From: Clostridioides difficile
Lineage (GTDB): Bacteria > Bacillota > Clostridia > Peptostreptococcales > Peptostreptococcaceae
DNA: 64,000 nucleotides
Assembly (NCBI RefSeq): GCF_001299635.1
Contig: NZ_JRHN01000054.1
Coordinates: 1 to 64,000, forward strand
Direction of reading: 5' to 3'
Numbering within the stretch: the first letter of the stretch is position 1; every line of letters starts with the position of its first letter. A program made the translations under genes and the position numbers. This document shows, piece by piece, positions 19,751-34,388 of the stretch. Below the pieces are notes generated by a model. That model was not told the origin of the DNA, searched no databases, and was given only the letters and a program-made list of their open reading frames with translations.

Positions 19751-20311
19751 CTACTCCTTTATTTTCATAGGTATGCCACTAACTACAAAATAAACTTCAT
19801 TACTTTTTGATGCTATGTATTGATTTATGCGACCTACAATATCAGCATATATCCTACTAAGTTTATTCCCAGGAACAATTCCCATACCTAATTCATTTGT
19901 AACAAATACAAAGTATAGATTTGTTTTTTCTATTTCTTCAATAAGTCTTATAACTTGTTCTTTTATATATTCTTCCAATTTGTTTATCTCTTCTTGAGTA
20001 GACTCTTCTATATTTAGATTGTGTTTAAACATTAGATTATTTACTAATAAGGTTACACAGTCTAGTATAACAGTTTCATGTTCTTTGTATAGCTGTCTAA
20101 TTATGGAATATATATCTTCATATATTTCATATGTATCCCAATTTCTAGGTCTATTTTCTTGATGCTTTTTTACCCTATCTTTCATTTCATCATCAAACGG
20201 AATAGAAGTTGCTATATAAGCTGTTTTATTATTCCTATTTAAACATAGCTTTTCTGCAAAGTTACTCTTCCCTGACCTAGCTCCTCCTGTTACCAGAACA
20301 ATTTCACTCAT
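19751..20311 (-). CDS. cobU: Adenosylcobinamide kinase / adenosylcobinamide-phosphate guanylyltransferase
   Basis: Bifunctional enzyme that phosphorylates adenosylcobinamide and activates it with GTP. It has 186 residues, with the P-loop LVTGGARSGKSNFAEKL at the N terminus, the guanylylation-site region VKKHQENRPRNWDTYE and the FVTNELGMGIVP motif. The ATG at 20311 is preferred over a TTG one codon earlier. It follows cobT by 32 bases. Confidence 0.95.
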   Translation of the reverse strand: MSEIVLVTGGARSGKSNFAEKLCLNRNNKTAYIATSIPFDDEMKDRVKKHQENRPRNWDTYEIYEDIYSIIRQLYKEHETVILDCVTLLVNNLMFKHNLNIEESTQEEINKLEEYIKEQVIRLIEEIEKTNLYFVFVTNELGMGIVPGNKLSRIYADIVGRINQYIASKSNEVYFVVSGIPMKIKE

Positions 20312-20343
20312 CAAAACACTCCTACATATTAAATTTTTATGCC

Positions 20344-21390
20344 TTATCTCCCCATGTCAATTTCATCAAAAGTTGCCATATTCTTATAAGTATAATTTGA
20401 AGCTTCTATTATGTTAAATGCTAGAGCAGCTCCACTTCCTTCACCCAACCTCATATCCATATTTAGTAAAGGGTCTAATTTCAATATATCTAAGGCTCTC
20501 TTAGTTCCTGATTCTGCTGACAGATGAGATGCTATCATATATTCTCTAGTTTTTGGATTTATCTTATAAGCAATTAGTGCTGCTGCATAAGAAATAAATC
20601 CATCGATTACTACTGGAATTCTATTAGCACTACATCCTAATATTACACCTGCCATTGAACCTATTTCAAATCCACCCACTTTAGATAAAATATCTACTCC
20701 ATCAGTTGGATTTGGATTATTAATTTCAATAGCTTTTCTGATTACTTCAGCCTTATGTTTTAGTCTCTCTTTTTTAAGACCTGCACCTATACCAGTAACT
20801 TCTAATGGGTCACAGCCTGAAATTACAGATATTATTGCTGTACTTGGAGTAGTATTTGCTATCCCCATCTCTCCAATACCAATAACCTTATAATCTTTTT
20901 CTATACACTGTTCTGCTATTTCAATTCCTATCTCTAAACATCTAATAGCTTCTTGTTTACTCATAGCTGGCCCTTTGGCCATGTTTGATGTTCCTTTTCT
21001 AATCTTATAATCCAATACTCCCTCTAGTTTTTCATCACAGTTTATTCCTACATCTACAGCTACAACATCTGCCCCTACAAATTTACTTATTACTCCAACT
21101 CCACATAATCCTTTCGAAAAATTTGGAAATTGTAGTTTTGTTATATTTTGAGGGTCAGGTGCTACACCTTCTTCATATACACCATGGTCTCCTGCAAAAG
21201 CTATTATAACTTTTTTACTTGTATCAAAATTTTCATTACCAAATATCCCTGATAATTGCATACAAATATCTTCTATTTTGCCTAAGCTTCCAGTTGGATG
21301 TATAAGCCTATCCAATCTCTGCTTTGTTTTTTCAATAGAAGAATTATCTAAAGAATATATATTTTTTGATATACTTTCTAATAAACTCAT
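20344..21390 (-). CDS. cobT: Nicotinate-nucleotide-dimethylbenzimidazole phosphoribosyltransferase
   Basis: Makes alpha-ribazole phosphate, the lower ligand nucleotide. At 348 residues it is of normal length. Motifs are RLIHPTGSLGKIEDI, FAGDHGVYEEGVAPDPQ (numbering near 65-82), IGIGEMGIANTTPSTAI and the catalytic glutamate region RLGEGSGAALAFNI near the end. It is the first gene of the cobT-cobU-cobS-cobC unit. No cobalamin aptamer lies in the 219 bases upstream. Confidence 0.96.
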   Translation of the reverse strand: MSLLESISKNIYSLDNSSIEKTKQRLDRLIHPTGSLGKIEDICMQLSGIFGNENFDTSKKVIIAFAGDHGVYEEGVAPDPQNITKLQFPNFSKGLCGVGVISKFVGADVVAVDVGINCDEKLEGVLDYKIRKGTSNMAKGPAMSKQEAIRCLEIGIEIAEQCIEKDYKVIGIGEMGIANTTPSTAIISVISGCDPLEVTGIGAGLKKERLKHKAEVIRKAIEINNPNPTDGVDILSKVGGFEIGSMAGVILGCSANRIPVVIDGFISYAAALIAYKINPKTREYMIASHLSAESGTKRALDILKLDPLLNMDMRLGEGSGAALAFNIIEASNYTYKNMATFDEIDMGR

Positions 21391-22194: not shown

Positions 22195-23067
22195 ATGAAT
22201 ATATTACAAAATGAAAAGTTAATTATAGAATCAAACAATTCTGGTGCTGAACTCACTAAAATATTTTCTAAAAGATATAATAAAGACATTCTTTGGAATG
22301 GTAATAAAAAATATTGGGGTAGACAATCACCTATATTATTTCCTATAGTAGGTAAACTTGTTGATAATGAAACTATAATAGAAGAAAATCTATATAGCAT
22401 GACTCAGCATGGATTTGCCAGAGATATGGAATTTGAGATTATAGATAAAGGAGATACATTCATATCTTATAAATTAACAGACAATGAATCTACTTTAGAA
22501 AATTATCCATATTCTTTTGAGCTAATCATAAATTATACATTAAAAGATAATAGTATAAATATAGAGTGGATTGTAAAAAATACTGACTCTAAAGATATAT
22601 TCTTTTCTATAGGCGGACATCCTGCATTTAATCTTCCTCTTTTTGAGCAAAATGATTTTTCTAAATATCATCTTGAATTTAAAAAAAGAAGTGATGTAGA
22701 AAAAATCAATTTAAATACTTCTTTTATAGATGATATAACATTTATCGGAGATTTAAAAAACTTACAGTTAAGTCCAGAATTATTCAAGAATGATGCCTTA
22801 ATATACACTAATATAGATGAAGTGTCTATATGTAATAATGATGGTGGCAAATATATAACTCTATCTATGCAAGATTTTCCTCTAGTTGGTATTTGGACTC
22901 CTTATTATAGTGAAACTAATTCTACTGCTCCATTTTTATGTATAGAACCTTGGTATGGTCTTGCTGATAGTATACATTCTAATAAAATTTATAAAGATAA
23001 GAAATTCATTAATAAACTTGGTAAAGGAAAAATTTTTACTGCTTCTTACAATATAAATATACATTAA
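22195..23067 (+). CDS. Aldose 1-epimerase family protein (LacX-like)
   Basis: A mutarotase-fold protein of 290 residues, related to LacX and galactose mutarotase. It probably interconverts anomers of a sugar or sugar phosphate in the cytoplasm. Family motifs include LTKIFSKRYNKDILWNGN, PILFPIVGKL, QHGFARDMEFE with the catalytic histidine, and SIGGHPAFNLP. AAAGGAG precedes the ATG and a TATAAT lies at 22157-22162. It is a single-gene unit ending at a strong terminator. The exact substrate is not predictable. Confidence 0.88.
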   Translation: MNILQNEKLIIESNNSGAELTKIFSKRYNKDILWNGNKKYWGRQSPILFPIVGKLVDNETIIEENLYSMTQHGFARDMEFEIIDKGDTFISYKLTDNESTLENYPYSFELIINYTLKDNSINIEWIVKNTDSKDIFFSIGGHPAFNLPLFEQNDFSKYHLEFKKRSDVEKINLNTSFIDDITFIGDLKNLQLSPELFKNDALIYTNIDEVSICNNDGGKYITLSMQDFPLVGIWTPYYSETNSTAPFLCIEPWYGLADSIHSNKIYKDKKFINKLGKGKIFTASYNINIH

Positions 23068-23165: not shown

Positions 23166-23200
23166 AAATATTACTGGAATGCAAAATTCCAGTAATATTT
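23166..23200. terminator. Bidirectional terminator
   Basis: AAATATTACTGGAAT pairs with ATTCCAGTAATATTT across a GCAAA loop. It separates the convergent epimerase gene and MalY-like gene. Confidence 0.85.
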
Positions 23201-23255: not shown

Positions 23256-24443
23256 TTAACAGTACATACTTATATACGTTTTTTTAATTCTATTTAGAGC
23301 TTCATTTAATGTCTCTTTAGGGCACCCTATATTAAGACGGATAAACCCTTCTCCATCTTTTACAAAATAACTTCCAACTACCATAGTTAAATTTGCATGT
23401 CTAAAAAACTCTTTAGCTTTTTCTTCATTTTCAAATACTTCTCTAACATCTATCCAAGCCAGAAAAGAAGAGTCTGACTTCATAACCTTTGCTTTTGGTA
23501 TATGTCTTTCAAAGAAATCATAAACTATTTCAAAATTATTCTCTACATAATTGGTCATTTCATCTAGCCATTTTTCACTTTCATTGTATGCTGCAATAAT
23601 CGCTGGTATTGCAAATACATTTGGAGAAGTTATTGAATTACTTTTTAATCTTTCTAACAAAATTTCTCTAACTTTTAAATCTCGTATTAATACATAAGAT
23701 GTTTTTAATCCTCCTAAGTTGAATCCTTTATTAGGAGATACACAGATTATACTATTTTTATAAATTTCTGGATGAGCATTCCATAAAGACACAAATCTGT
23801 GACCTTTAAATACTACATCCCTATGAATTTCATCACTTACCAAAAGTACATTATACTTTAAGCATAACTCTGATACTTTATACAGTTCTTCCTTTGTCCA
23901 TATACGACCTGATGGATTTTGTGGACTACAGAATATAAATAATTTTATATTTTTGTATTTCATTTGAGCTTCTATATCTTCTAAGTCTAAATAATATCTA
24001 TTATTCTCTAATTTTAATGAGCTACAACATAATTTTCTATTATTGTTTACTACAGCTTCTGCAAAAGGGTCATAGGCAGGTGTATTTATCAATACACACT
24101 CTCCTTGCTTAGTGTATGCTTGGACTATATAATGAAGTGTTGAAACCGTCCCAAAAGTTAACTTTATCCATTCTTTTTCTACATATATATCAAACCTTCT
24201 TTTATTCCAATTTATAATAGAATCATAGAAGTCATCTCCTATAAAAGTATAACTATAATCTCCTACTGATGCTCTTTTTAAGATAGATTCTTTTATAGCA
24301 GGAGCACATTCAAAATCAATATCAGCTAAATCCATAGGAATTGCATCTTCATTTAAGTCAAACTTTTCTTTAATTATATGGTTGCTCCACTTCCTACAAT
24401 TCCCCTCTTTACGATTTAATACTTTGTCAAAATTATATTTCAT
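23256..24443 (-). CDS. MalY/PatB-type PLP enzyme (probable cystathionine beta-lyase)
   Basis: A fold type I PLP enzyme of 395 residues. The pyridoxal lysine is in VSPNKGFNLGGLKTSYV, and SDEIHRDVVFKGHR and FCSPQNPSGRIWTKEE are MalY/PatB motifs. Members cleave C-S bonds of cystathionine and S-substituted cysteines, and some act as aminotransferases. AGGAG precedes the ATG. It is the last gene of a PTS operon that also encodes two peptidases, which suggests that an imported conjugate releases a cysteine derivative. That substrate idea is inference. Confidence 0.88.
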   Translation of the reverse strand: MKYNFDKVLNRKEGNCRKWSNHIIKEKFDLNEDAIPMDLADIDFECAPAIKESILKRASVGDYSYTFIGDDFYDSIINWNKRRFDIYVEKEWIKLTFGTVSTLHYIVQAYTKQGECVLINTPAYDPFAEAVVNNNRKLCCSSLKLENNRYYLDLEDIEAQMKYKNIKLFIFCSPQNPSGRIWTKEELYKVSELCLKYNVLLVSDEIHRDVVFKGHRFVSLWNAHPEIYKNSIICVSPNKGFNLGGLKTSYVLIRDLKVREILLERLKSNSITSPNVFAIPAIIAAYNESEKWLDEMTNYVENNFEIVYDFFERHIPKAKVMKSDSSFLAWIDVREVFENEEKAKEFFRHANLTMVVGSYFVKDGEGFIRLNIGCPKETLNEALNRIKKTYISMYC

Positions 24444-24447
24444 AATT

Positions 24448-25518
24448 TTATTCTCCTAATATCATAAAATCTTTGGATGTCTTATTGAGTGGAACACCTT
24501 TTCCATCTATTATAACAATGTCATCTTCTATCCTAACTCCCCCTATATTTGGAATGTAGATTCCTGGCTCACAAGACATTACCATTCCCTCGGTTAATAT
24601 ATCATCACTATTTGGATTTAGAGTAGGAATCTCGCCATCTCCAAGACCTAGACCATGACCTAGACCATGATTAAAATACTCACCAAATCCATGTTTATCT
24701 ATAATTTCTCTAGCTACTTTGTCAACATCACAGGCCTTAACTCCTTCTTTTATTGACTCTATTGCAGATAATTGTGCTTCTAATACTACATTATATATCT
24801 CTTGAATAATTTTAGGAGGTTTACCTATAGATATTGTACGAGTCATATCCGATTGATACCCTTGATAAACAACACCAAAATCTATCGTTATAGCTTCATT
24901 TACTTTCAACTTTTTATTTGTAGGTCTTCCATGTGGCATTGCTCCTCTTTCCCCTGATACCACTATTGTCTCAAAAGACATACCACTTGCACCTTTTTTC
25001 AATGCATGATACTGAATTAGAGCTGATACTTCTAGTTCGGTCATATCTTTTTTAATCTCAGAAATAACTTCATTAAACACTTCGTCTGTAATATCACAAG
25101 CATTTTTAATAAGTTCAATCTCTTCTTTAGATTTCACAGACCTTAACTTCCATAATTCATTGGTTATTAAATTGATTTCAAAGCCTGCATTTTTTAGCAA
25201 AATATACTCTTGTATACTCATAGATTGATTTTCTATTGCTAACTTTCCTATATTCAATTCTCTTAATAGTCCAATTATATTTGGTATATAAGTACCTTGA
25301 GATACAACTCTTTTTATGAAGCCAGTAGTTTTTTTATCTGCTTCATCAATATATCTACCATCTAGAATTTGATAGTTTTTATCTTTAGTAATAAGTACAT
25401 ACACACCACTACCTGATAATGCTCCTATGTATCTTTTAGTGTTCTTAGCTTTAATCAAAAGAGCGTCAACACCTCTTTTATAGATTAAATCTACTAGTCT
25501 CTCTATTGTATTATCCAT
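24448..25518 (-). CDS. M24-family Xaa-Pro aminopeptidase (YpdF/PepQ-like)
   Basis: Metallopeptidase that removes an N-terminal residue before proline. The 356-residue protein has a creatinase-type N-terminal domain (about 1-120) and a pita-bread catalytic domain. The dinuclear metal ligands are visible: the two aspartates in TIDFGVVYQGYQSDMTRTI, the histidine in HGLGHGLG, and the glutamates in SCEPGIYIP and GGVRIEDD. It lies between PTS EIIC and the MalY-like gene. A weak ribosome binding site and short gap suggest translation coupled to EIIC. Confidence 0.92.
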   Translation of the reverse strand: MDNTIERLVDLIYKRGVDALLIKAKNTKRYIGALSGSGVYVLITKDKNYQILDGRYIDEADKKTTGFIKRVVSQGTYIPNIIGLLRELNIGKLAIENQSMSIQEYILLKNAGFEINLITNELWKLRSVKSKEEIELIKNACDITDEVFNEVISEIKKDMTELEVSALIQYHALKKGASGMSFETIVVSGERGAMPHGRPTNKKLKVNEAITIDFGVVYQGYQSDMTRTISIGKPPKIIQEIYNVVLEAQLSAIESIKEGVKACDVDKVAREIIDKHGFGEYFNHGLGHGLGLGDGEIPTLNPNSDDILTEGMVMSCEPGIYIPNIGGVRIEDDIVIIDGKGVPLNKTSKDFMILGE

Positions 25519-25527
25519 ATCAAAATA

Positions 25528-26850
25528 TTAGAAATCCAGACCTAAGCCATCTAATAAGTCTTCTTCTTCTTTAGAGAATATGTTCTTTGTTTCTTCTTTT
25601 TGTTTTTTATTATTCTGTTGACGTTCCATTATTTTAAAGAATGGCCAATATAATAAGACTGCCAATACTAGCTGTAATGCATTTGCTAATATAGAATGCC
25701 AATCTCCATTAGTTAAAAAACCTTCTAAGAATACCCCCACATATGGAGGGTCAAATACTGGTTTTGCTAACCATCCCCAATGCATAAAAAACATTGGCAA
25801 TGTCCCTATTATAGCCCCACCAAATACATGTGGTATAAACATTACTGGATTTAATATTATTGGTGCACCAAATAATATTGGTTCATTTATTCCAAATAAT
25901 GCAGGGAATAATGATACACGTCCAATCTTTTTATAAGATGCGTTTTTTGATAACATACATGCAATTACACAACCTATACTAATTCCACAACCTGTAAATC
26001 CAAAGAATGCACTTGAAGCTCCTGCTGTAAAGAAATGAGGTATTGTTTCACCAGCTTGCATAGCTGCTATATTTTCAGCTATAAATGTAATCATTATAGG
26101 TCTAGTTATAGGGCTAAATACTGATGAATGTATTCCGAAAAAGAATATCGTACATATAGCAAAATTAAGAGCAAGAACTGACCATGGATTATCCATACTT
26201 CCTACTAATGGAGATAAAAATTGAGTAAGTATTTGTGGAGGTAATTCTCCAAACACTTTTAATGAAATAAAACGTGCAACTATAAAAGTACCACAAACTA
26301 TTATAGTAGTTGGTATCAATTCAAAAGACCTAGATACAAAATCAGGTACATTTTCTGGCATTTTTATTGTAATATTCTTCTTAGCACAGAAATTATATAA
26401 CTCTACAGAACCAAGTCCTGCTATCATCCCCGTAAATAGCCCTTTAGCTCCTAAGTTTCCTATTTCTAATGCTCCATCTGGTGTGAATGATGCTACTAGG
26501 AATAGAAAGGAAAAAGTTGATAGTGCAACACAACCTGGTATATATAACTTATAATAATTACCTAAATTAAAAGCAATACACATACAAGCATATAATCCTA
26601 TCAAACCTATGGAAAGACTTACTGGTAAGTCTAGTATTGTTGCATTATTCAATATAAATTTGCTTATCGAGTTACTCTCTCCAAGCATGTTTGGAAGTGC
26701 TGGAAGTATTGCAAATATACTTCCTAATATAGTGAATGGTGTCATAGCCACCATACCAGCCTTTATAGAACCAAGGTGACGCTGATTGTCAACCTTGTGA
26801 GCTAAAGGCATAAATACTCTATTCATGAACGCTTCAAATTTTGAAAACAT
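25528..26850 (-). CDS. PTS lactose/cellobiose-type EIIC permease
   Basis: Membrane channel component that carries the substrate while it is phosphorylated by EIIB. The 440 residues make about ten hydrophobic segments, with the family stretches MTPFTILGSIFAILP, VPDFVSRSFELIPT and LFGINEPILFGAPIILNP, the last being the substrate-binding loop with its conserved glutamate. The C terminus is a charged tail of about 30 residues, rich in Lys and Glu. GGGGGA precedes the ATG. Substrate is unknown; no glycosidase accompanies it. Confidence 0.93.
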   Translation of the reverse strand: MFSKFEAFMNRVFMPLAHKVDNQRHLGSIKAGMVAMTPFTILGSIFAILPALPNMLGESNSISKFILNNATILDLPVSLSIGLIGLYACMCIAFNLGNYYKLYIPGCVALSTFSFLFLVASFTPDGALEIGNLGAKGLFTGMIAGLGSVELYNFCAKKNITIKMPENVPDFVSRSFELIPTTIIVCGTFIVARFISLKVFGELPPQILTQFLSPLVGSMDNPWSVLALNFAICTIFFFGIHSSVFSPITRPIMITFIAENIAAMQAGETIPHFFTAGASSAFFGFTGCGISIGCVIACMLSKNASYKKIGRVSLFPALFGINEPILFGAPIILNPVMFIPHVFGGAIIGTLPMFFMHWGWLAKPVFDPPYVGVFLEGFLTNGDWHSILANALQLVLAVLLYWPFFKIMERQQNNKKQKEETKNIFSKEEEDLLDGLGLDF

Positions 26851-26881
26851 ATTTAATCCCCCTTTCCCCTCAATATTCTTA

Positions 26882-27217
26882 TTACCCTTGAGCTAATTGA
26901 TGCTTTTTATATGTTATTAATGCTAACTTCATAACTGTAGCTCCATCCATTTTCCCATATACATCTTTATCTATTACTGCAAAGGGTTTGTTTTTTGGTT
27001 CTAATATCCCTTTTAAAAAATCTATTTTGTGAGCTATCTGAGGTCCTATAAGTACTATATCCCAATCATCAACTTCACTTTCTATTGAATCTGCTGGTAT
27101 AGCTGTAAATTCAAAATCTTTTTCATCAAGTTTAGCACTTTCTTTTACTACCTTCTTCATATTTTGCATTAGCATATTAGTAGAAAATCCACCTGCACAA
27201 CATAATAATATTTTCAT
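26882..27217 (-). CDS. PTS lactose/cellobiose-type EIIB
   Basis: Soluble phosphotransfer protein of 111 residues that passes phosphate from EIIA to the sugar bound by EIIC. The P-loop with the phospho-cysteine is at the N terminus (MKILLCCAGGFSTNMLMQNM); Cys7 aligns best with the catalytic residue and a second cysteine precedes it. An AGGAGG box lies before the ATG. It follows EIIA after an unusually long gap of 99 bases for this operon. Confidence 0.93.
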   Translation of the reverse strand: MKILLCCAGGFSTNMLMQNMKKVVKESAKLDEKDFEFTAIPADSIESEVDDWDIVLIGPQIAHKIDFLKGILEPKNKPFAVIDKDVYGKMDGATVMKLALITYKKHQLAQG

Positions 27218-27316
27218 AATAATTCCTCCTAAAATTTATATTTTTTATTATCTCTTGAAAGCATTTAAAACTTTCTAAAAGAAAATTTATGTAAATAATT
27301 TATTTATACACTACAA

Positions 27317-27622
27317 CTACTTGTCAAGACAATCTATCAAAGCCTCTATCAAGTCTTTTGCTAGTTGAGAAGTCATATAGTGGTCTTGGGCATGTACCAT
27401 TAAAAGACTCATTGCTGGACTTTCAACATCTTCATTTAAATCTTGAGTTATCAATTCTGTCTGTATTCTATGAGCTTCAATATCTATTTTACGAGCCTCC
27501 TCTATTAACAATTTTGCTCCTTTAAAATCTTTTACTTTCACTTTTTTTAAAGCTTCGAAAGCTTTTGATTTACTTTCCCCTGCAGTTGATATAAGCTCCA
27601 TTATTTGTAACTCTGTTGACAT
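27317..27622 (-). CDS. PTS lactose/cellobiose-type EIIA
   Basis: Helical phosphocarrier of 101 residues that receives phosphate from HPr. The family signature SLLMVHAQDHYMTSQLAKDL near residues 72-91 holds the phospho-histidine (His77). The N-terminal helix pair ELISTAGESKSKAFEALKK is also typical. AAAGGAG precedes the ATG. It is 14 bases after the M42 peptidase gene. Confidence 0.94.
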   Translation of the reverse strand: MSTELQIMELISTAGESKSKAFEALKKVKVKDFKGAKLLIEEARKIDIEAHRIQTELITQDLNEDVESPAMSLLMVHAQDHYMTSQLAKDLIEALIDCLDK

Positions 27623-27636
27623 TTTCCTATTCTCCT

Positions 27637-28680
27637 TTAAATAAAATTTCTTATATGTTTATATTTTTCTTCATCAAAATTTAAGATTAATTGTGTATAT
27701 AACTTTATAATAGCATCCAAATCTTTATTACTTACTATCGAAAATGCACAATGACCATATCTGACTGGTACACAAGTTACTACACAAGGTTTCCCTTCAT
27801 TTACAAGATGTGCTTCTCCCCCATCAGTACCACCTGATTCAAACATATCATGTTGAAGTTGTATATTGTTTTTATTAGCAATTTCCATTACATAATCTAT
27901 CATTTTTCTACTAGGGACTAAAGTCCTATCTCTATGCATTAGCATTATACCTTTATCAATTTGTTTCTGATTTGTATAGTCTCTTACAAACTCGTTCTTA
28001 GCACATGCTACATCTATTACAAATACTATATCAGGATTTATTAGCTGTGTTGCTGTCTTTGCTCCTCTTATTCCAACTTCTTCACTACTTGTAGCTGCAA
28101 AGTGAATATTACAGTTTAGATTTTTATTCTCTAACTCTTTTAAAACCTCTCCCATCACAAAGCATCCTATCCTATCATCAAAAGCTTTTCCAACTAATCG
28201 GTCTTGAAGAGTGAATTCCTCAAAGTTTGTTGTATAGGTTACCATATCCCCAACATGAATTCCTAGATTGTATACTTCATCTTCTGTACATGCTCCAATA
28301 TCTGCATATATATTTTCAACTTTGCCATTATTATATGTGGCATTTATTATAGCAGGTATTTTTTTTCCTTCTCTTGTTGTAATTCTAATTTTTTGAACAA
28401 ACTGTGCAAGAGGTTTTACTCCCCCTATTGTTATTAGGTGAATCATGCCAAGTTTATCTATACTTCTCACCATAAATCCAACTTCATCCATATGAGCACA
28501 AATCATTACATTTGGTGCATTTTCATCTTTTATCTTAGAAAAGATTACACTCCCTAGCCCATCACATATAACTTTATCACTATAAGTTTTTAGCTCGTCT
28601 AATAAAACTTGTCTAACCTCCTCTTCATTAGATGCTATACCATCTGCTTCTGATAATCTCTTAAAAAACTCTATATTCAT
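27637..28680 (-). CDS. M42-family aminopeptidase (FrvX/YpdE-like)
   Basis: Dinuclear-metal aminopeptidase of 347 residues, a relative of glutamyl aminopeptidase PepA and of proteins once called CelM endoglucanases. Metal-site residues are seen in ICAHMDEVGF, GKAFDDRIGC, AATSSEEVGIRGA, FVIDVACA and RYGHCAFS. M42 enzymes form large dodecameric particles in the cytoplasm. It starts two bases after the PRD regulator and precedes EIIA. In Escherichia coli, M42 proteins are also encoded beside PTS genes (frv and fry/ypd clusters). Confidence 0.92.
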   Translation of the reverse strand: MNIEFFKRLSEADGIASNEEEVRQVLLDELKTYSDKVICDGLGSVIFSKIKDENAPNVMICAHMDEVGFMVRSIDKLGMIHLITIGGVKPLAQFVQKIRITTREGKKIPAIINATYNNGKVENIYADIGACTEDEVYNLGIHVGDMVTYTTNFEEFTLQDRLVGKAFDDRIGCFVMGEVLKELENKNLNCNIHFAATSSEEVGIRGAKTATQLINPDIVFVIDVACAKNEFVRDYTNQKQIDKGIMLMHRDRTLVPSRKMIDYVMEIANKNNIQLQHDMFESGGTDGGEAHLVNEGKPCVVTCVPVRYGHCAFSIVSNKDLDAIIKLYTQLILNFDEEKYKHIRNFI

Positions 28681-28682
28681 GC

Positions 28683-30584
28683 CTAACCTCCCAGATAGAT
28701 TTTTAACTTATACATAAACTCTTCATAGGATTGTGACTTATTTAGCATATCTACCATATCCTTATCTGTCATAATCTTACTTAGATATTTAGATATCTGT
28801 TTATGAAGCTCTAAATTTCCCTTTATTAATGAAATCATGAAAATAATTTTTGGCACCCTATTTTCATAACTAATATCAGTTTGTATCAAAGCTACTGATA
28901 TAATATTTTTATTACCTGTCATTTCAATTGGATGAGGTATTGCTACACCATTTGTGTAAATAGTGCTCAAATAACTTTCTCTTTCCCACACATCTCTAGG
29001 ATAGGTTGGGGAACAAGCTCCTTCATCAACTATGCATTGTGACATGCTATCGAGGATATTCTTATATTTGATTTTGTCTTTTATACATCTAAAGTGATTC
29101 TTATCAAACAGACCTAATATATATTGTTTTGGGCTTGATATATTTCCTATATGGTCTGCAAATCTAACACTTTCTTTAATATCTAAATAATCCAGTTCAT
29201 CTAAAATTTCATTTATAAGTATAACTGGAGCATTTATTTCAAATAAAAGAGTTGTTATTGAAAAAATCAAATCTGGTGCAAATTCTACTACAGGTTTTTC
29301 CTCTAGTAATGAAAAATTTTTTATATCAGCATTTGGAAAGATTTCTTTAAGCCTTAAATTTATTAAAAATGCACTACCTCCACCAGAAGAGCATATTATA
29401 GCTATCTTATACTTTTTATTAAAATTGGCCTCTTCTCTCTTTTCAAAGGGTACAGCAATATGAGTGGCTATAAAACCTATTTCATCTTGACTTATTTTTA
29501 TATGATACTCATTTTCTATAATTTTTGAAAACTGAATAGATAAATTAAAAACAGTTGGATATTGTTGGCTTATCTTAACTGAAAAAGGATTTATTATCTT
29601 GTGATTCTTCTTTATACGTTCTATTAAACATGCAATATGTAAATAAAATAAATTAAGAAATTCTTTATCCTCTAAAAAATTAGAGTTATACTTTTTGTCT
29701 ATATCTCTAAAAAATTCATATATTATATCTTGAAGTTTATTTTTGTCTATATTCTTTATAGTGGCTTTCTTATCTTTAGTCCTTAATTTTATAAGTTGTT
29801 TTAAATAATACTTTTCATCATGATTAAGATTGTATTTTTTATCTTTAAAAATTTTATCTAATAAGTCATCTATAATTAAATCTTCCGTATATAAGTCTAA
29901 ATCATTAACATCTCTTGCCACTCTCATACTAACTCTTATATACAATATAATAATTTGTGCTAATATTTCCTCAAGCTCTGTTAGGTTGACTTCTAAGTTA
30001 TGTTCATTAAGAACATTTTTTATTGTACTTCTAATACTATCTAATTTAAATTTATCTATAAATCTATTTCTATACTCTGTTATATTTCTATTCCCTTTAA
30101 AATAACTATCCACTAATATACTTTGAATTTCTTTTACAGAGCCTTCTATTTTAATTCCATAATGAGCCTTTCTCTGTAATTTTAATTCTGTATCCTTTAT
30201 CTTTTCATCTACCTTTTTTAAATCATTTTTTATTTGGGATGAACTTACTAAAAATTTTTTACTTAATTGTTCTATAGTTTTATAACCTTCATTTATTAAA
30301 AGTTCTACTATTATAGATTCTAACCGTTGTTCTGGATTTTCAACTAAATCTGAGGGTAAGCTTTTTAGGTAATGCTCGAATTTCTCTTGGTCTTTAATAT
30401 TTAGAATATATCCTAATTTAGACTTATACTCTAATTTGAAGCCATTACATTCTTTTATAGTTTCTATCTTTTTTATTTCATTTCTGATAGTTCGAGTAGA
30501 TACCCCCAATTTATCTGCAAAATAATCTATATTTAGATAACTACTACTATTTTTCAATGTCTCAAGAATAATGCGTTCTCTCAT
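28683..30584 (-). CDS. PRD-containing transcriptional regulator with EIIB- and EIIA-like domains
   Basis: PTS-controlled activator of the MtlR/LicR type, 633 residues. In order: an HTH domain (about 1-60, NIDYFADKLGVSTRTIRNEI), a second HTH-like region, two PRD domains (about 170-390) with histidines open to phosphorylation, an EIIB-like domain near 405-490 (IAIICSSGGGSAFLINLRL) and an EIIA-like domain at the C terminus (TNGVAIPHPIEM). It is the first gene of the PTS-peptidase operon and probably controls it according to PTS flux. GGGAGG precedes the ATG. No sigma-54-interaction domain is present. Confidence 0.92.
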   Translation of the reverse strand: MRERIILETLKNSSSYLNIDYFADKLGVSTRTIRNEIKKIETIKECNGFKLEYKSKLGYILNIKDQEKFEHYLKSLPSDLVENPEQRLESIIVELLINEGYKTIEQLSKKFLVSSSQIKNDLKKVDEKIKDTELKLQRKAHYGIKIEGSVKEIQSILVDSYFKGNRNITEYRNRFIDKFKLDSIRSTIKNVLNEHNLEVNLTELEEILAQIIILYIRVSMRVARDVNDLDLYTEDLIIDDLLDKIFKDKKYNLNHDEKYYLKQLIKLRTKDKKATIKNIDKNKLQDIIYEFFRDIDKKYNSNFLEDKEFLNLFYLHIACLIERIKKNHKIINPFSVKISQQYPTVFNLSIQFSKIIENEYHIKISQDEIGFIATHIAVPFEKREEANFNKKYKIAIICSSGGGSAFLINLRLKEIFPNADIKNFSLLEEKPVVEFAPDLIFSITTLLFEINAPVILINEILDELDYLDIKESVRFADHIGNISSPKQYILGLFDKNHFRCIKDKIKYKNILDSMSQCIVDEGACSPTYPRDVWERESYLSTIYTNGVAIPHPIEMTGNKNIISVALIQTDISYENRVPKIIFMISLIKGNLELHKQISKYLSKIMTDKDMVDMLNKSQSYEEFMYKLKIYLGG

Positions 30585-30921
30585 ATGCCCACCTCCCTCA
30601 GTATTATTATCTTTTTCAAAGTAGTATTACAAACAAAAATATCTTCTTACTAAAAATTAAACTCTTAATTTTATTTATATTTACGAAGTTTATATCCTAG
30701 TATATTTTAGCATTAAAGTTTATGATACAGATTTCATAATAATAAAATATATAGTTCAATTTTTATTATATTTTAATTATATATGTAATACTTTACCAAT
30801 AAAAGCTGATATTTTTCATCAATTAAATGAAAAAAATACACTATTATATATAAATGATATAAATTTTTCATATAACAAATATCCTAAACTTATCTAAAAT
30901 AAATTTAGGATATTTTATTTT
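30585..30921. other. Intergenic region upstream of the PTS-peptidase operon
   Basis: This AT-rich stretch of 337 bases should carry the promoter of the PRD regulator operon. It contains a dyad TTTTTCAT-N7-ATGAAAAA at 30812-30834 and the terminator of the aldolase unit at 30877-30915. I see no GntR-type palindrome and no cobalamin-like or other known leader RNA. Confidence 0.5.
30877..30915. terminator. Terminator after the tagatose-bisphosphate aldolase gene
   Basis: AAATATCCTAAA pairs with TTTAGGATATTT. The better T-run follows on the plus strand, but its place right after the aldolase stop fits the minus-strand operon. Confidence 0.6.
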
Positions 30922-31773
30922 TTATGCTTTATTTACAGACCCACATACTTTAATTTTTTCTTTTACAAAGTCCTTTACTGATTGAATTCCTGCCAACCCA
31001 TATTTTTTAGGGTCTATAACCTCAGAATCTTTACTTAAAACTTTTTTAACTCCATTACTATATGCAATTCTTAATTCAGTTGCGTAGTTAACTTTTCTAA
31101 TCCCTCTTTTTATAGCCTCTTTTATAATATCATCACGTATTCCCGAACCTCCATGTAATACTAAAGGTATTGAAACTACTTTTTTAATTTCTGATAGTCT
31201 GTCTAAATCTATTTTAGGTTCACCTTTATACAATCCATGCGCTGTACCTATAGCTATGGCTAATGAAGATACTCCTGTTCTATCGACAAACTCTTTTGCC
31301 TCTTTTGGATTTGTATAATCATTACTATCTCCACCATCTAAATCATCTTCTTTTCCACCAACTTTTCCAAGTTCTGCTTCCACTGGTATAAGAGATGGGC
31401 TACATGCTTTTACTACTGATTTAGATAGATATATATTATTTTCAAAACTTTCATGAGAACCATCTATCATTATTGATGTATAACCATCCCTTAAAGCTTT
31501 CATTGCAAGTTCAAAACTTGAACCATGGTCTAAATGCATTGCTATAGGTATATTTACTCTCTTCGCTGCAACCTTTGCATTTGCTAGATAATAATCAAGC
31601 CCTGCATACTTCACAGTTGATGGAGTCGTTTGTAATATAACTGGAGAATTTAGCTCCTCAGCAGCTTCTATAACAGCAATTACCATTTCCATATTTTCCA
31701 CATTAAATGCACCTACTGCATACCCTTCATCTTGTGCCTTTTTAAGCATCGATGTTGTTGTTACTAATGCCAC
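30922..31773 (-). CDS. Class II tagatose/fructose-bisphosphate aldolase
   Basis: Zinc-dependent cleavage of tagatose 1,6-bisphosphate (or fructose 1,6-bisphosphate) to DHAP and glyceraldehyde 3-phosphate. The 283-residue protein has AMHLDHGSSFELAMKAL with zinc-binding histidine, VEAELGKVGGKED and VLHGGSGIRDD. I chose the GTG at 31773 because the GGGGGG ribosome binding site lies upstream of it; a TTG five codons earlier sits on that box. It follows agaS and is likely co-transcribed. The GatY/KbaY role is inferred from AgaS and the PfkB kinase nearby. Confidence 0.9.
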   Translation of the reverse strand: MALVTTTSMLKKAQDEGYAVGAFNVENMEMVIAVIEAAEELNSPVILQTTPSTVKYAGLDYYLANAKVAAKRVNIPIAMHLDHGSSFELAMKALRDGYTSIMIDGSHESFENNIYLSKSVVKACSPSLIPVEAELGKVGGKEDDLDGGDSNDYTNPKEAKEFVDRTGVSSLAIAIGTAHGLYKGEPKIDLDRLSEIKKVVSIPLVLHGGSGIRDDIIKEAIKRGIRKVNYATELRIAYSNGVKKVLSKDSEVIDPKKYGLAGIQSVKDFVKEKIKVCGSVNKA

Positions 31774-31820
31774 ATTGATACCCCCCAAATTATTTAATTA
31801 TAATATTTTAATAAATATTT

Positions 31821-32984
31821 TTAGTATTCATATATTGTTACACCTTTTACTACTCTATTTACTGTTCCTGTAACTGATGGTGTATCTGGCTTATTTTCAA
31901 CTTTTATAGATGCAAATAATGCTATAGTTTGTGCAAATAATATGTATGGCATTGCAAGATACGCATCTGGCAATTTATTATATTTTCCTCCAAACTCAAA
32001 CTTTGTTCCTGAAAAGTTACTTTCGCCTTCTACAGACACTGCACAAGTGAGTTTGGCAATCTTATCTCTTTTTATTTCTTCTAAAACATCTAAGTCATAT
32101 TTTCTTGTATATGAACAATTGGATACAAATTCAAATACAAGTGTATTTTTATCAATAAATGATTTGGGACCATGTCTAAATCCCATAGGAGAATCATATA
32201 CTGTAGCTATTTTCCCTGCTGTAAGTTCTAAAAGTTTTAGTTGTGCTTCTTGTGTAAGACCACCTAATCCTCCTGAACCTAAATATACAACTCTATCAAA
32301 ATCTTTATTTATTAACTCATGTATTTCGTCTTTTCTATCTATAACATTTCTTCCCATTTCAATTATTGAATGTATATATGACTTTTCTACATCATCTTCT
32401 AAACTATCAAATATTAGCATAGCAGATAACATCATACATGAAAAACTTCCAGTCATAGCGAAACCTTTATCATTTGATTTTGATGGCATTAGTAACAAGT
32501 AATTGTTTTCATCATTTTTAGCCATTTTAGCCAGTTCGCCTTCTGGATTACAAGTTATAACTAAATGATAAAAATTATCTACAATTTGATTTCCTAAGTT
32601 TAGAGCAGCCAAGCTTTCAGGGCTATTTCCACTTCTTGCAAATGAAACTAATAACGTTGGCACATCTTTTTTTAAGTAATCATATGGATTAGAAACTATA
32701 TCTGTAGTAGGTATTGTTTCAAATATATATTTTCTTATATCATTTTTATTTTTAAGATAAGGGAGTATTGAGTTTCCTACATAAGCTGAAGTCCCAGCAC
32801 CTGTAAAGATAACTCTAAACTGCCCATGATTACTACTTATTGTATCTATAAACCTACTTAATTTTTCTTTATTAGATTTATATGTTTCATAAGTTTCTAA
32901 CCATAATTCAGGTTGTTGTTTTATTTCGTTAGTCGTTATTATTGCACCTAAATCTTTTAATTTTTGTTCTTCTAGTTTAAACAT
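31821..32984 (-). CDS. agaS: AgaS-type galactosamine-6-phosphate deaminase/isomerase (SIS domains)
   Basis: Two SIS sugar-phosphate domains in 387 residues, of the AgaS type. It probably converts galactosamine 6-phosphate to tagatose 6-phosphate and ammonia. Motifs are RVIFTGAGTSAYVGNSILP, VSFARSGNSPESLAALN and VVYLGSGGLGGLTQEA. The second of two ATGs is used because AAAGGGG is too close to the first. It is preceded by a leader of about 270 bases with two GntR-type operators. GlmS-like glutaminase sequence is absent, so it is not an aminotransferase. Confidence 0.88.
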   Translation of the reverse strand: MFKLEEQKLKDLGAIITTNEIKQQPELWLETYETYKSNKEKLSRFIDTISSNHGQFRVIFTGAGTSAYVGNSILPYLKNKNDIRKYIFETIPTTDIVSNPYDYLKKDVPTLLVSFARSGNSPESLAALNLGNQIVDNFYHLVITCNPEGELAKMAKNDENNYLLLMPSKSNDKGFAMTGSFSCMMLSAMLIFDSLEDDVEKSYIHSIIEMGRNVIDRKDEIHELINKDFDRVVYLGSGGLGGLTQEAQLKLLELTAGKIATVYDSPMGFRHGPKSFIDKNTLVFEFVSNCSYTRKYDLDVLEEIKRDKIAKLTCAVSVEGESNFSGTKFEFGGKYNKLPDAYLAMPYILFAQTIALFASIKVENKPDTPSVTGTVNRVVKGVTIYEY

Positions 32985-33026
32985 TTTCATTCCCCTTTCA
33001 TACTCATAACACTTAATTTTGGTAAT

Positions 33027-33470: not shown

Positions 33471-34388
33471 ATGAAAAATATAAAAGTCGGTATGATAGGT
33501 CTTGGCTCTATAGCTCAAAAAGCATATTTACCTGTATTAACAAAATCTGATAGATTTAAATTTGTAGGAGCCTTTACTCCAAATAAATCCAAAAGAGAAA
33601 AAATCTGTAGTGATTATAGGCTCACACCATTTGATTCTATTGAATCTTTAGCTAAAAAGTGTGATTGTATTTTTCTACATAGCTCTACAGAAACACACTA
33701 CGAAATTATAAAGATACTATTAAATTTAGGTATTCATGTATATGTGGACAAACCACTTGCATCAACAGTAGAGCAGGGAGAAGAGCTTATCGAATTAAGT
33801 ATGAAAAAAAACCTAAATTTAATGGTTGGATTTAACCGTAGATTCTGTCCTATGTACAAAGAAATCAAAAGGAATGCTACAGAAATTGTATCTATCAATA
33901 TATGCAAACATGGATTAAATTCTATAAGAAATGTTGGATTTGACAGTACACTTATAGATGACTATATACATGTTATTGATACTGCCTTATGGTTAGCAGA
34001 TAGTGATGTTAAAATTACTGGAGAGGATTTATTTTTAACAGACAATAAGAATCTAATATTTGTAAGTCATAAGCTTAAGGGTAAAAACTTCTCCATAAAT
34101 ACCTTTATGCATAGAGATTCTGGAACAAAATTAGAACAAGTTGAGATTATTTCAAAGGGTAAAATTCAAAGAGTTAAAAACCTTAATACACTGGAAATAG
34201 AAGAGTATGGAAATCTAACTTCAAAACAAAGTGGTGCATGGGTAAATATATTAAAACAAAAAGGTTTTGAGGACATAATAAATCATTTCATTGATTGCTT
34301 AGAAAATAGTATAAAACCAGCAATTAGTGGAGAAGAGTGTGTTAAAGCTCAAAGATTACTAGAGAAAATTATCGGTTCAGTAAAATAG
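33471..34388 (+). CDS. Gfo/Idh/MocA family oxidoreductase
   Basis: NAD(P)-dependent sugar or polyol dehydrogenase of 305 residues. The Rossmann motif KVGMIGLGSIAQKAYLPVL opens the protein and the family motif HVYVDKPLAST contains the catalytic lysine-proline pair. The C-terminal part supplies the sugar-binding domain (FMVGFNRR-like segment NLMVGFNRRFCPMYKEIK). It lies within the amino-sugar locus but reads divergently from agaS with its own promoter. Substrate is unknown. AGGAG precedes the ATG. Confidence 0.87.
   Translation: MKNIKVGMIGLGSIAQKAYLPVLTKSDRFKFVGAFTPNKSKREKICSDYRLTPFDSIESLAKKCDCIFLHSSTETHYEIIKILLNLGIHVYVDKPLASTVEQGEELIELSMKKNLNLMVGFNRRFCPMYKEIKRNATEIVSINICKHGLNSIRNVGFDSTLIDDYIHVIDTALWLADSDVKITGEDLFLTDNKNLIFVSHKLKGKNFSINTFMHRDSGTKLEQVEIISKGKIQRVKNLNTLEIEEYGNLTSKQSGAWVNILKQKGFEDIINHFIDCLENSIKPAISGEECVKAQRLLEKIIGSVK

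Follow-up and report, generated by a model that had tools for sequence, protein, structure and literature searches.

We detected a conserved cluster of seven genes in Clostridioides difficile that combines a phosphotransferase system (PTS) of the lactose/cellobiose family with two peptidases and a pyridoxal phosphate (PLP) carbon-sulfur (C-S) lyase. The cluster lies in a stretch of 64,000 nucleotides (contig NZ_JRHN01000054.1, positions 1 to 64,000), referred to here as the window, from a genome of 4.28 Mb. Seven collinear open reading frames (ORFs) run on the minus strand from 30584 down to 23256 and encode, in this order, a PRD regulator, an M42 aminopeptidase, EIIA, EIIB, EIIC, an M24 peptidase and the C-S lyase. 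It is nearly certain that the set forms a conserved module, and the run is beyond chance, since M42, M24 and lyase matches accompany EIIC in 75 of the 80 loci found through it and in none of 18 control loci. Our tentative proposal is that this PTS module handles a glycoconjugate, with the lyase in the role of a glycosidase, a reading that we regard as quite possible. It is supported by the enzyme trio (M42, M24, lyase) in these loci and the persistence of the set despite reordering, by lyases found with three kinds of PTS in one genome, by PTS-linked lyase subclades, by RidA genes in or beside 5 of the 80 loci, by an EIIC that keeps its ligand residues and differs at position 370, by the C-S beta-lyase activity published for a lyase from a cluster of the same layout (PMC5845896) and by a known route in which a dipeptidase and then PatB act on a Cys-Gly S-conjugate (PMC11742315); here and below, papers are cited for the available parts of their text. 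The assayed lyase, the subclades and RidA are additions to the initial annotation of this DNA.

The genome collection was scanned once with an EIIC alignment, and the best 80 of 88 relatives were kept as loci. The initial annotation had proposed counting EIIC genes that neighbour M42, M24 and MalY-type lyase genes and had held that the link recurs across phyla; tblastn matched all four genes in 75 loci and all seven in 71, and the set was found in three phyla, Bacillota, Actinomycetota (Collinsella) and Pseudomonadota (Vibrio), as well as on two annotated Enterococcus megaplasmids. A PRD regulator homologue was present in 73 loci. EIIC, M42, M24 and lyase lay on one strand within 6 kb in 70 loci and each formed a single ORF of at least 300 aa in 66; in loci beyond those 66, ORF calling gave split or short frames, or a longer frame overlapped the genes. 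The 18 control loci, which carry other lactose-family EIIC genes of the same order, contained no M42, no M24 and no close lyase, with one distant aminotransferase-type match (82 bits) in L170; the control stretches L156 and L170 overlap, L162 covers only 3.9 kb and L171 12.7 kb. The 80 loci are not independent, because many are from Enterococcus and six Enterococcus genomes carry two clusters each (L048/L109, L050/L102, L051/L101, L052/L097, L053/L106 and L056/L095). The window's genome encodes additional members of both the M42 and the PatB family, as an association by chance or by general nutrient regulation would allow, but the count of 75 against none, reached although gene order is rearranged and the lyases belong to different subclades, makes such an origin extremely improbable.

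The nearest named relatives of the locus are those of C. difficile CD160 and 173070 (EIIC 98% identity), and EIIC was detected at 98-100% identity in five of the eight Clostridioides genomes. A phage collection gave 45 matching records, the best rows being about 33% identical. Gene order varies by clade, with IIA-IIB-IIC-M24-M42-lyase in one Enterococcus/Listeria/Bacillus clade; the lyase gene is on the opposite strand in L075, L077, L080 and L087, which include Vibrio and Collinsella, and upstream in L113. The cluster of Lacticaseibacillus thailandensis (L112) looks decayed, its EIIC, M42, regulator and lyase matches being split over several frames, and M24 of L055 is a remnant match only. 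Five loci are without the full four genes (L083, L084, L091, L118 and L119): the contig of L118 ends inside EIIC, M42, M24 and lyase are all absent from L119 (33% identity), and the other three are considered below.

A glycosidase-free collinear run of these seven genes with short gaps had been described in the initial annotation, and this description was borne out: all seven ORFs were located, their families agree in Pfam and NCBIfam, the successive intergenic gaps are 2, 14, 99, 31, 9 and 4 bases, and no glycosidase family matched among the scanned cluster proteins. The regulator (28683..30584, 633 aa) is a PRD-type transcriptional activator with HTH_11, Mga HTH, PRD and EIIA_2 domains (Pfam, NCBIfam). 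The M42 metalloaminopeptidase (27637..28680) is of the YpdE type (NCBIfam PRK09961, 563 bits, cut-off 412) and 43% identical to E. coli YpdE. EIIA (27317..27622, Pfam PF02255) and EIIB (26882..27217, Pfam PF02302) were assigned to the lactose/cellobiose family and score below the cut-offs of TIGR00823 (84.5 vs 137 bits) and TIGR00853 (62.6 vs 110 bits), respectively. EIIC (25528..26850) represents a distinct subfamily of the same family, above the TIGR00410 cut-off (261.3 vs 236 bits) and below that of the cellobiose PTS EIIC equivalog TIGR00359 (261.3 vs 434 bits). The M24 peptidase (24448..25518) is YpdF/prolidase-like, with PF00557 and Creatinase_N domains (Pfam); it is below the YpdF equivalog cut-off (PRK09795, 244 vs 393 bits) and is classed only as M24 by PF00557. 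The last gene (23256..24443) encodes a PatB/MalY-type PLP C-S lyase (TIGR04350, 367.4 bits, cut-off 340). A terminator-like hairpin follows on the minus strand (23166..23200, a 15-pair stem and then a T run, a consensus match only); terminator-like sites numbered 7 vs 3.2 expected in 12 kb, and promoter-like sites were at chance level (83 found, 82.0 expected). Judged from spacing only, the seven genes are probably co-transcribed. Family scans covered ten window proteins in Pfam, plus the oxidoreductase at 33471 in NCBIfam; no glycoside hydrolase match was obtained for the nine proteins of 23256-32990 and the epimerase at 22195 (Pfam), nor for the oxidoreductase (NCBIfam).

The enzyme and EII proteins keep their conserved residues throughout the loci. 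In the M42 alignment of 79 rows, H63, D65, D168 and E200 were each present in 77 and E201, D223 and H310 in 78; D213, D224, H288, E317 and E331 of M24 were invariant in 75 rows; EIIA has H51 and H77 in 75/75 rows and H81 in 74/75, and C7 of EIIB is kept in 72/73. These columns include what we take to be the expected catalytic residues. In the lyase, K239 (74/75 rows) and Y65 (75/75) map by sequence to K246 and Y72 of ShPatB, the PLP lysine and the active-site tyrosine, from which their roles are taken (PMC7385124).

EIIC residues were compared in 72 of 79 rows (length 400-480 aa; L119 excluded). The only solved-structure match of the window EIIC at E <= 1e-10 was the chitobiose EIIC 3QNQ (ChbC), whose ligand residues E334 and H250 are described as conserved (PMC11393339). 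They correspond to E323 and H241 of the window EIIC, each present in 72/72 rows and, in the controls, in 20/20 and 18/20 rows; two control genes appear twice among these 20, because control stretches overlap. Position 370 is Tyr in 71/72 rows vs Trp in 19/20 control rows, and by our own reading this column presumably matches W382 of ChbC, a ligand contact. With E323 and H241 kept and position 370 changed, the window EIIC looks like a sugar-type EIIC with an altered site. It thus shares with the chitobiose/cellobiose systems (ChbBCA, CelABC) the EIIC family and the His and Glu ligand residues, and differs from them in the Tyr of the Trp column and in the peptidases and lyase, which were absent from the 18 lacE-family control loci. 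The lactose/cellobiose family and the conserved sugar-ligand residues would suit a PTS for an ordinary sugar or glycoside, with the peptidases supplying amino nitrogen and the lyase acting as a regulator or side enzyme; E. coli MalY, annotated as a negative regulator of MalT activity, offers a precedent. We consider this rather unlikely: catalytic residues are kept, the enzyme trio accompanies EIIC across phyla and is missing from every control locus, and the cluster proteins include no glycosidase.

A PTS phosphorylates its cargo, normally at a sugar hydroxyl, and a PLP eliminase requires a free amino acid. From the genes and residues we infer the substrate, the order of steps and the bond cut as follows. 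EIIABC would import and phosphorylate a sugar linked to a di- or short peptide via a cysteine side chain, or alternatively via another amino acid whose beta carbon bears a leaving group. The M42 and M24 peptidases would strip the neighbouring residues and leave the conjugated amino acid with free alpha-amino and alpha-carboxyl groups; peptidases would be needed on both sides, because the glycopeptide must become a glyco-amino acid for a PLP lyase. The MalY/PatB-type lyase would then cut the beta-carbon bond by elimination to give the sugar-phosphate moiety, pyruvate and ammonia, and since the cut would be made at the beta carbon no glycosidase would be needed. A sulfur link would yield a thiosugar; RidA, where present, would clear 2-aminoacrylate, and in Peptostreptococcaceae the linked AgaS-like isomerase and aldolase may process the released sugar phosphate. 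Thiol release is thus one of two options for the lyase, which may alternatively free the sugar itself. A sugar joined to a peptide or a cysteine derivative, the cargo first suggested for this cluster, appears to fit these results.

In the literature searched, subscription papers being outside the search, only PMC5845896 shows such a cluster, and its available text gives no function for it. The malY cluster of L. sakei LT-13 consists of PRD, aminopeptidase, lac-family IIA, IIB and IIC, RDD, aminopeptidase and MalY genes, while strain LK-145 is without it (PMC5845896). By the published description, it has the gene set of the window in the layout of L071 and differs by an added RDD gene and by two PRD genes. 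The genes are named and MalY was assayed there, with no transported substrate proposed in the text available (PMC5845896). Ls-MalY had lyase activity on L-Cys (95 nmol/min/mg) and also on cystine and cystathionine (data not shown in that paper), and no activity was detected on L-Ser (PMC5845896). We favour a sulfur link because of this published specificity. Ls-MalY is also a broad racemase that acts on Ala, Arg, Val and others, with kcat/Km of 80.9 for L-Cys lysis and of 12.2 and 13.7 for Ala racemization (PMC5845896). The racemase activity could be read as a D-amino-acid or muropeptide route, the lyase enabling the use of cell-wall peptide residues, which we hold to be very unlikely given the higher kcat/Km for L-Cys lysis, the lack of MurQ or an amidase among the cluster's own proteins, and an association with RidA that suggests an imine-releasing lyase.

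The proposed order of a peptidase and then a PatB-type lyase acting on a cysteine conjugate has a parallel in Staphylococcus hominis, where Cys-Gly-3M3SH is handled by a peptide transporter, the PepV dipeptidase and PatB (PMC11742315, PMC7385124). In that route uptake is by the peptide transporter, with no PTS described, and neither the transporter nor the peptidase is dedicated to the conjugate (PMC11742315).

Beyond the seven core families, among variable neighbours of which only a minority were annotated here, no ORF family occurred in more than 17 of the 80 loci, and therefore no glycosidase is a constant member of the cluster. The RidA-family gene of five loci (confirmed by Pfam in 5/5) overlaps or directly follows the lyase gene in L061 (13666-14070), L079 (14620-14997) and L116 (14265-14645) and precedes the regulator in L069 (5818-6282) and L073 (5685-6065). 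PLP eliminases release enamine/imine products that RidA enzymes hydrolyse, and beta-elimination is favoured because an enzyme that clears such imines joins some of the clusters. An RDD membrane protein was found in 17 loci of a single EIIC clade (checked by Pfam in 2 loci), its gene lying either between those for EIIC and M24 or after the final enzyme gene (e.g. L066:13210-13866 and L079:11438-12028). Eight Enterococcus loci (L090, L092, L095, L097, L101, L102, L106 and L109) have a DsrE-like small protein upstream of the regulator, which possibly indicates a sulfur link; the one copy scanned scored slightly below the Pfam cut-off (20.2 vs 22.7).

Upstream of the window cluster, on the same strand and separated by a gap of 337 bases, lies a separate unit of a tagatose/fructose-bisphosphate aldolase gene (30922..31788; PF01116, GatY subfamily PRK12737 433 vs 383) and, upstream of it, a gene for an AgaS-like SIS sugar isomerase/deaminase (31821..32990; TIGR02815 450 bits, below the cut-off of 529). 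An aldolase gene is upstream of the cluster in L028, L029, L030, L040, L041 and L042 (L030 and L041 being one stretch), and aldolase beside AgaS and the cluster was found in Peptostreptococcaceae only. The pair could point to O-glycosyl Ser/Thr peptides, for instance of the mucin type (GalNAc-Ser/Thr), from which the peptidases would expose the residue and the lyase would eliminate the sugar phosphate, leaving galactosamine to be degraded by the AgaS-like enzyme and the tagatose-bisphosphate aldolase. Such elimination would directly yield a metabolizable sugar phosphate, AgaS and the cluster EIIC are present in the same five of eight Clostridioides genomes, and many carriers belong to genera that we take to be gut inhabitants. 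An oxygen link would fit AgaS and aldolase in Peptostreptococcaceae, but not elsewhere: an AgaS-like gene occurred in only 4 of 80 loci, in one of them about 6 kb distant, it is below its family cut-off in the window, and no activity of Ls-MalY on L-Ser was detected in the published assay, so that we judge this explanation unlikely. The published description of a Bacteroides mucin O-glycoprotein locus (PMC11992087) contains no PTS-lyase route in the part available. Farther from the cluster, the genes at window positions 19751-21390 resemble CobU and CobT of cobalamin synthesis, as read from the translation alone.

The same genome carries five strong-scoring PatB-like lyases, of which three are PTS-linked. 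On contig C38 (L177:7127-15011), an M20 PepV-type dipeptidase, a regulator, fructose-family EIIA, EIIB and EIIC, an M24 peptidase and a lyase are encoded; the lyase is slightly below the PatB cut-off (339.4 vs 340 bits) and EIIC shares 53% identity with E. coli FryC. This EIIC was found in all eight Clostridioides genomes, and among the relatives of the locus, compared in six of eleven other genomes, the regulator, EIIABC, M24 and lyase are kept in 6/6 and the dipeptidase in 5/6. Contig C41 (L176:6114-11250) encodes, as a single run, a LicT-type antiterminator, a MalX-like EIIBC (568 bits, below the cut-off of 632), a lyase (344 bits in the PatB model), a SIS protein and a glucose-type EIIA. 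The pairing of lyase and PTS, with or without peptidases, thus occurs also with two other PTS families, fructose/Fry and glucose/MalX. The two remaining PatB-like lyases have no Lac-, Fru- or MalX-type EIIC in the surrounding 15 kb stretch. One of them, on contig C39 (L121, L174:4644-9623), lies between a sigma-54 activator and an Na+/H+-antiporter-family protein, which fits the reported effect of SigL on a MalY/PatB, described as a cysteine C-S lyase, in C. difficile 630 (PMC5767170).

SIS proteins adjoin both the window cluster and the MalX-lyase operon, as would be expected if Amadori or N-glycosylated peptides were imported and trimmed by the peptidases, an AgaS-like SIS deglycase freed the sugar and the lyase handled cysteine-derived by-products. 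Such a scheme would make the lyase dispensable, but lyase matches were found in 75 of 80 loci, and the AgaS-like gene, in a search that did not extend to other SIS families, was present in only four of them; we find this route quite improbable.

In the lyase phylogeny, PTS-linked lyases separated from most free PatB lyases. In a first tree, built by a quick method, a branch (SH-aLRT 99) divided 78 PTS-linked lyases from 31 lyases taken as not PTS-linked, with one label change vs 27.2 in shuffles. Of the 78, 75 had been found via EIIC, and those independent of the EIIC search are E. coli MalY, which groups among the PTS-linked lyases, and the two PTS-linked paralogues of the window's genome. 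An alternative of many independent lyase recruitments (at least four switches) was dropped once these three had been labelled as PTS-linked. The free lyases, defined as lacking a PTS of the Lac, Fru or MalX type, the mannose, ascorbate and galactitol families lying outside the search, are biased to high scorers in the PatB model and to Clostridia. Two of 29 new lyase loci (L202 and L215) were dropped for want of a usable frame and 20 of the other 27 had flanks of 1.5 kb only; seven free loci re-read with 6 kb flanks likewise had no PTS neighbour of the Lac, Fru or MalX type. Among the 31 free rows, the second lyases of L072 and L074 lie next to an aldolase gene, about 2.8 kb past a complete PTS cluster.

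A second, careful tree took in 23 of the 75 operon lyases and 13 held-out lyases. For these 13, flanks of at most 6 kb (shorter in three cases, where the contig ends) contained no EIIC or EIIB of the Lac, Fru or MalX type. Eleven of the 13 fell outside the PTS-linked group. The tree contains two PTS-linked subclades, each with support of 100/99, joined with the held-out L238 and L239 at 97/94; it needs two label changes, and a single change was found in 30% of bootstrap trees. As far as the trees resolve it, the PTS-linked group consists of two PTS-linked subclades plus two unplaced rows and is no perfect clade, because L238 and L239 (long branch) attach at its base without a PTS neighbour of these three types. 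The Collinsella locus L075 (judged by its EIIC kin, with a long EIIC branch) and L091 carry lyases from the other subclade. At lyase position 250 every PTS-linked lyase, the 75 operon rows and the three others, has Tyr; Asn or Ala stands there in 20 of 29 free lyases, and the free L121 has Tyr too. Conserved basic columns are R17, K27, R208 and K247 in one subclade and R67, K73 and K378 in the other; the columns gained comprise 7 basic vs 8 acidic in the window's subclade and 7 vs 3 in the other.

The parallel with E. coli fry and its peptidase genes ypdE and ypdF, drawn in the initial annotation, is real. Like the window cluster, fry combines a PTS with M42 (YpdE) and M24 (YpdF) peptidases, and the FryC homologue in the window's genome stands with M24 and a lyase. 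The fry system has fructose-family EIIB and EIIC and FryA, unlike the lactose-family EII proteins of the window. By analogy, the window cluster may work like the fry system, without being classed as fry. Like the window cluster, E. coli malXY joins a PTS to a MalY-type lyase, whose gene there directly follows that of the permease; malXY differs in MalX, a fused EIIBC of the glucose family, and in having the MalI repressor and no peptidases. No MalX was detected in the window cluster by Pfam and NCBIfam, and the cluster was not assigned to malXY. We know of no physiological substrate of E. coli fry or malXY.

Several observations weigh against a glycoconjugate module with a lyase in place of a glycosidase. 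The E. coli fry system has no adjoining lyase gene, no lyase was found within the fetched DNA of the two Photobacterium loci (L083 and L084), and M24 is absent from the Clostridium locus L091. Free lyases L228 and L240 have a distant M24-family gene nearby (26-28% identity) and no PTS, so PTS loci are not the only place where M24 stands beside a lyase. The PTS-linked lyases show no overall enrichment in basic residues that might bind phosphate. Since Ls-MalY was a broad racemase and inactive on L-Ser in the published assays, lysis of conjugates may not be its main job. Finally, an S-glycosidic link would give a 1-thiosugar phosphate that needs an extra desulfurizing step, and no family outside the seven core genes is frequent enough (at most 17 of 80 loci) to supply it throughout.

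PTS operons are usually named after sugars by homology, and the best family label of the window EIIC is cellobiose/lactose; the conserved enzyme set makes an amino-acid or peptide conjugate the more likely cargo. The module is real, widespread and built from known parts; it is of interest for its recurrence with three PTS families and for the idea that a lyase replaces a glycosidase. It is conceivable, though doubtful at present, that PTS-lyase systems form a general, so far unrecognised route for sugars carried on cysteine-type residues of small peptides, in which the lactose, fructose/Fry and glucose/MalX families would share PTS-dedicated MalY lyases that replace glycosidases. If true, such a route would account for the physiological substrates of E. 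coli fry and malXY as well. Taken together, the analysis provides a testable frame for these two systems and a reason for MalY lyases beside PTS genes, and if the lyase frees the sugar, bacteria would have a glycosidase-independent use of glycosylated peptides.

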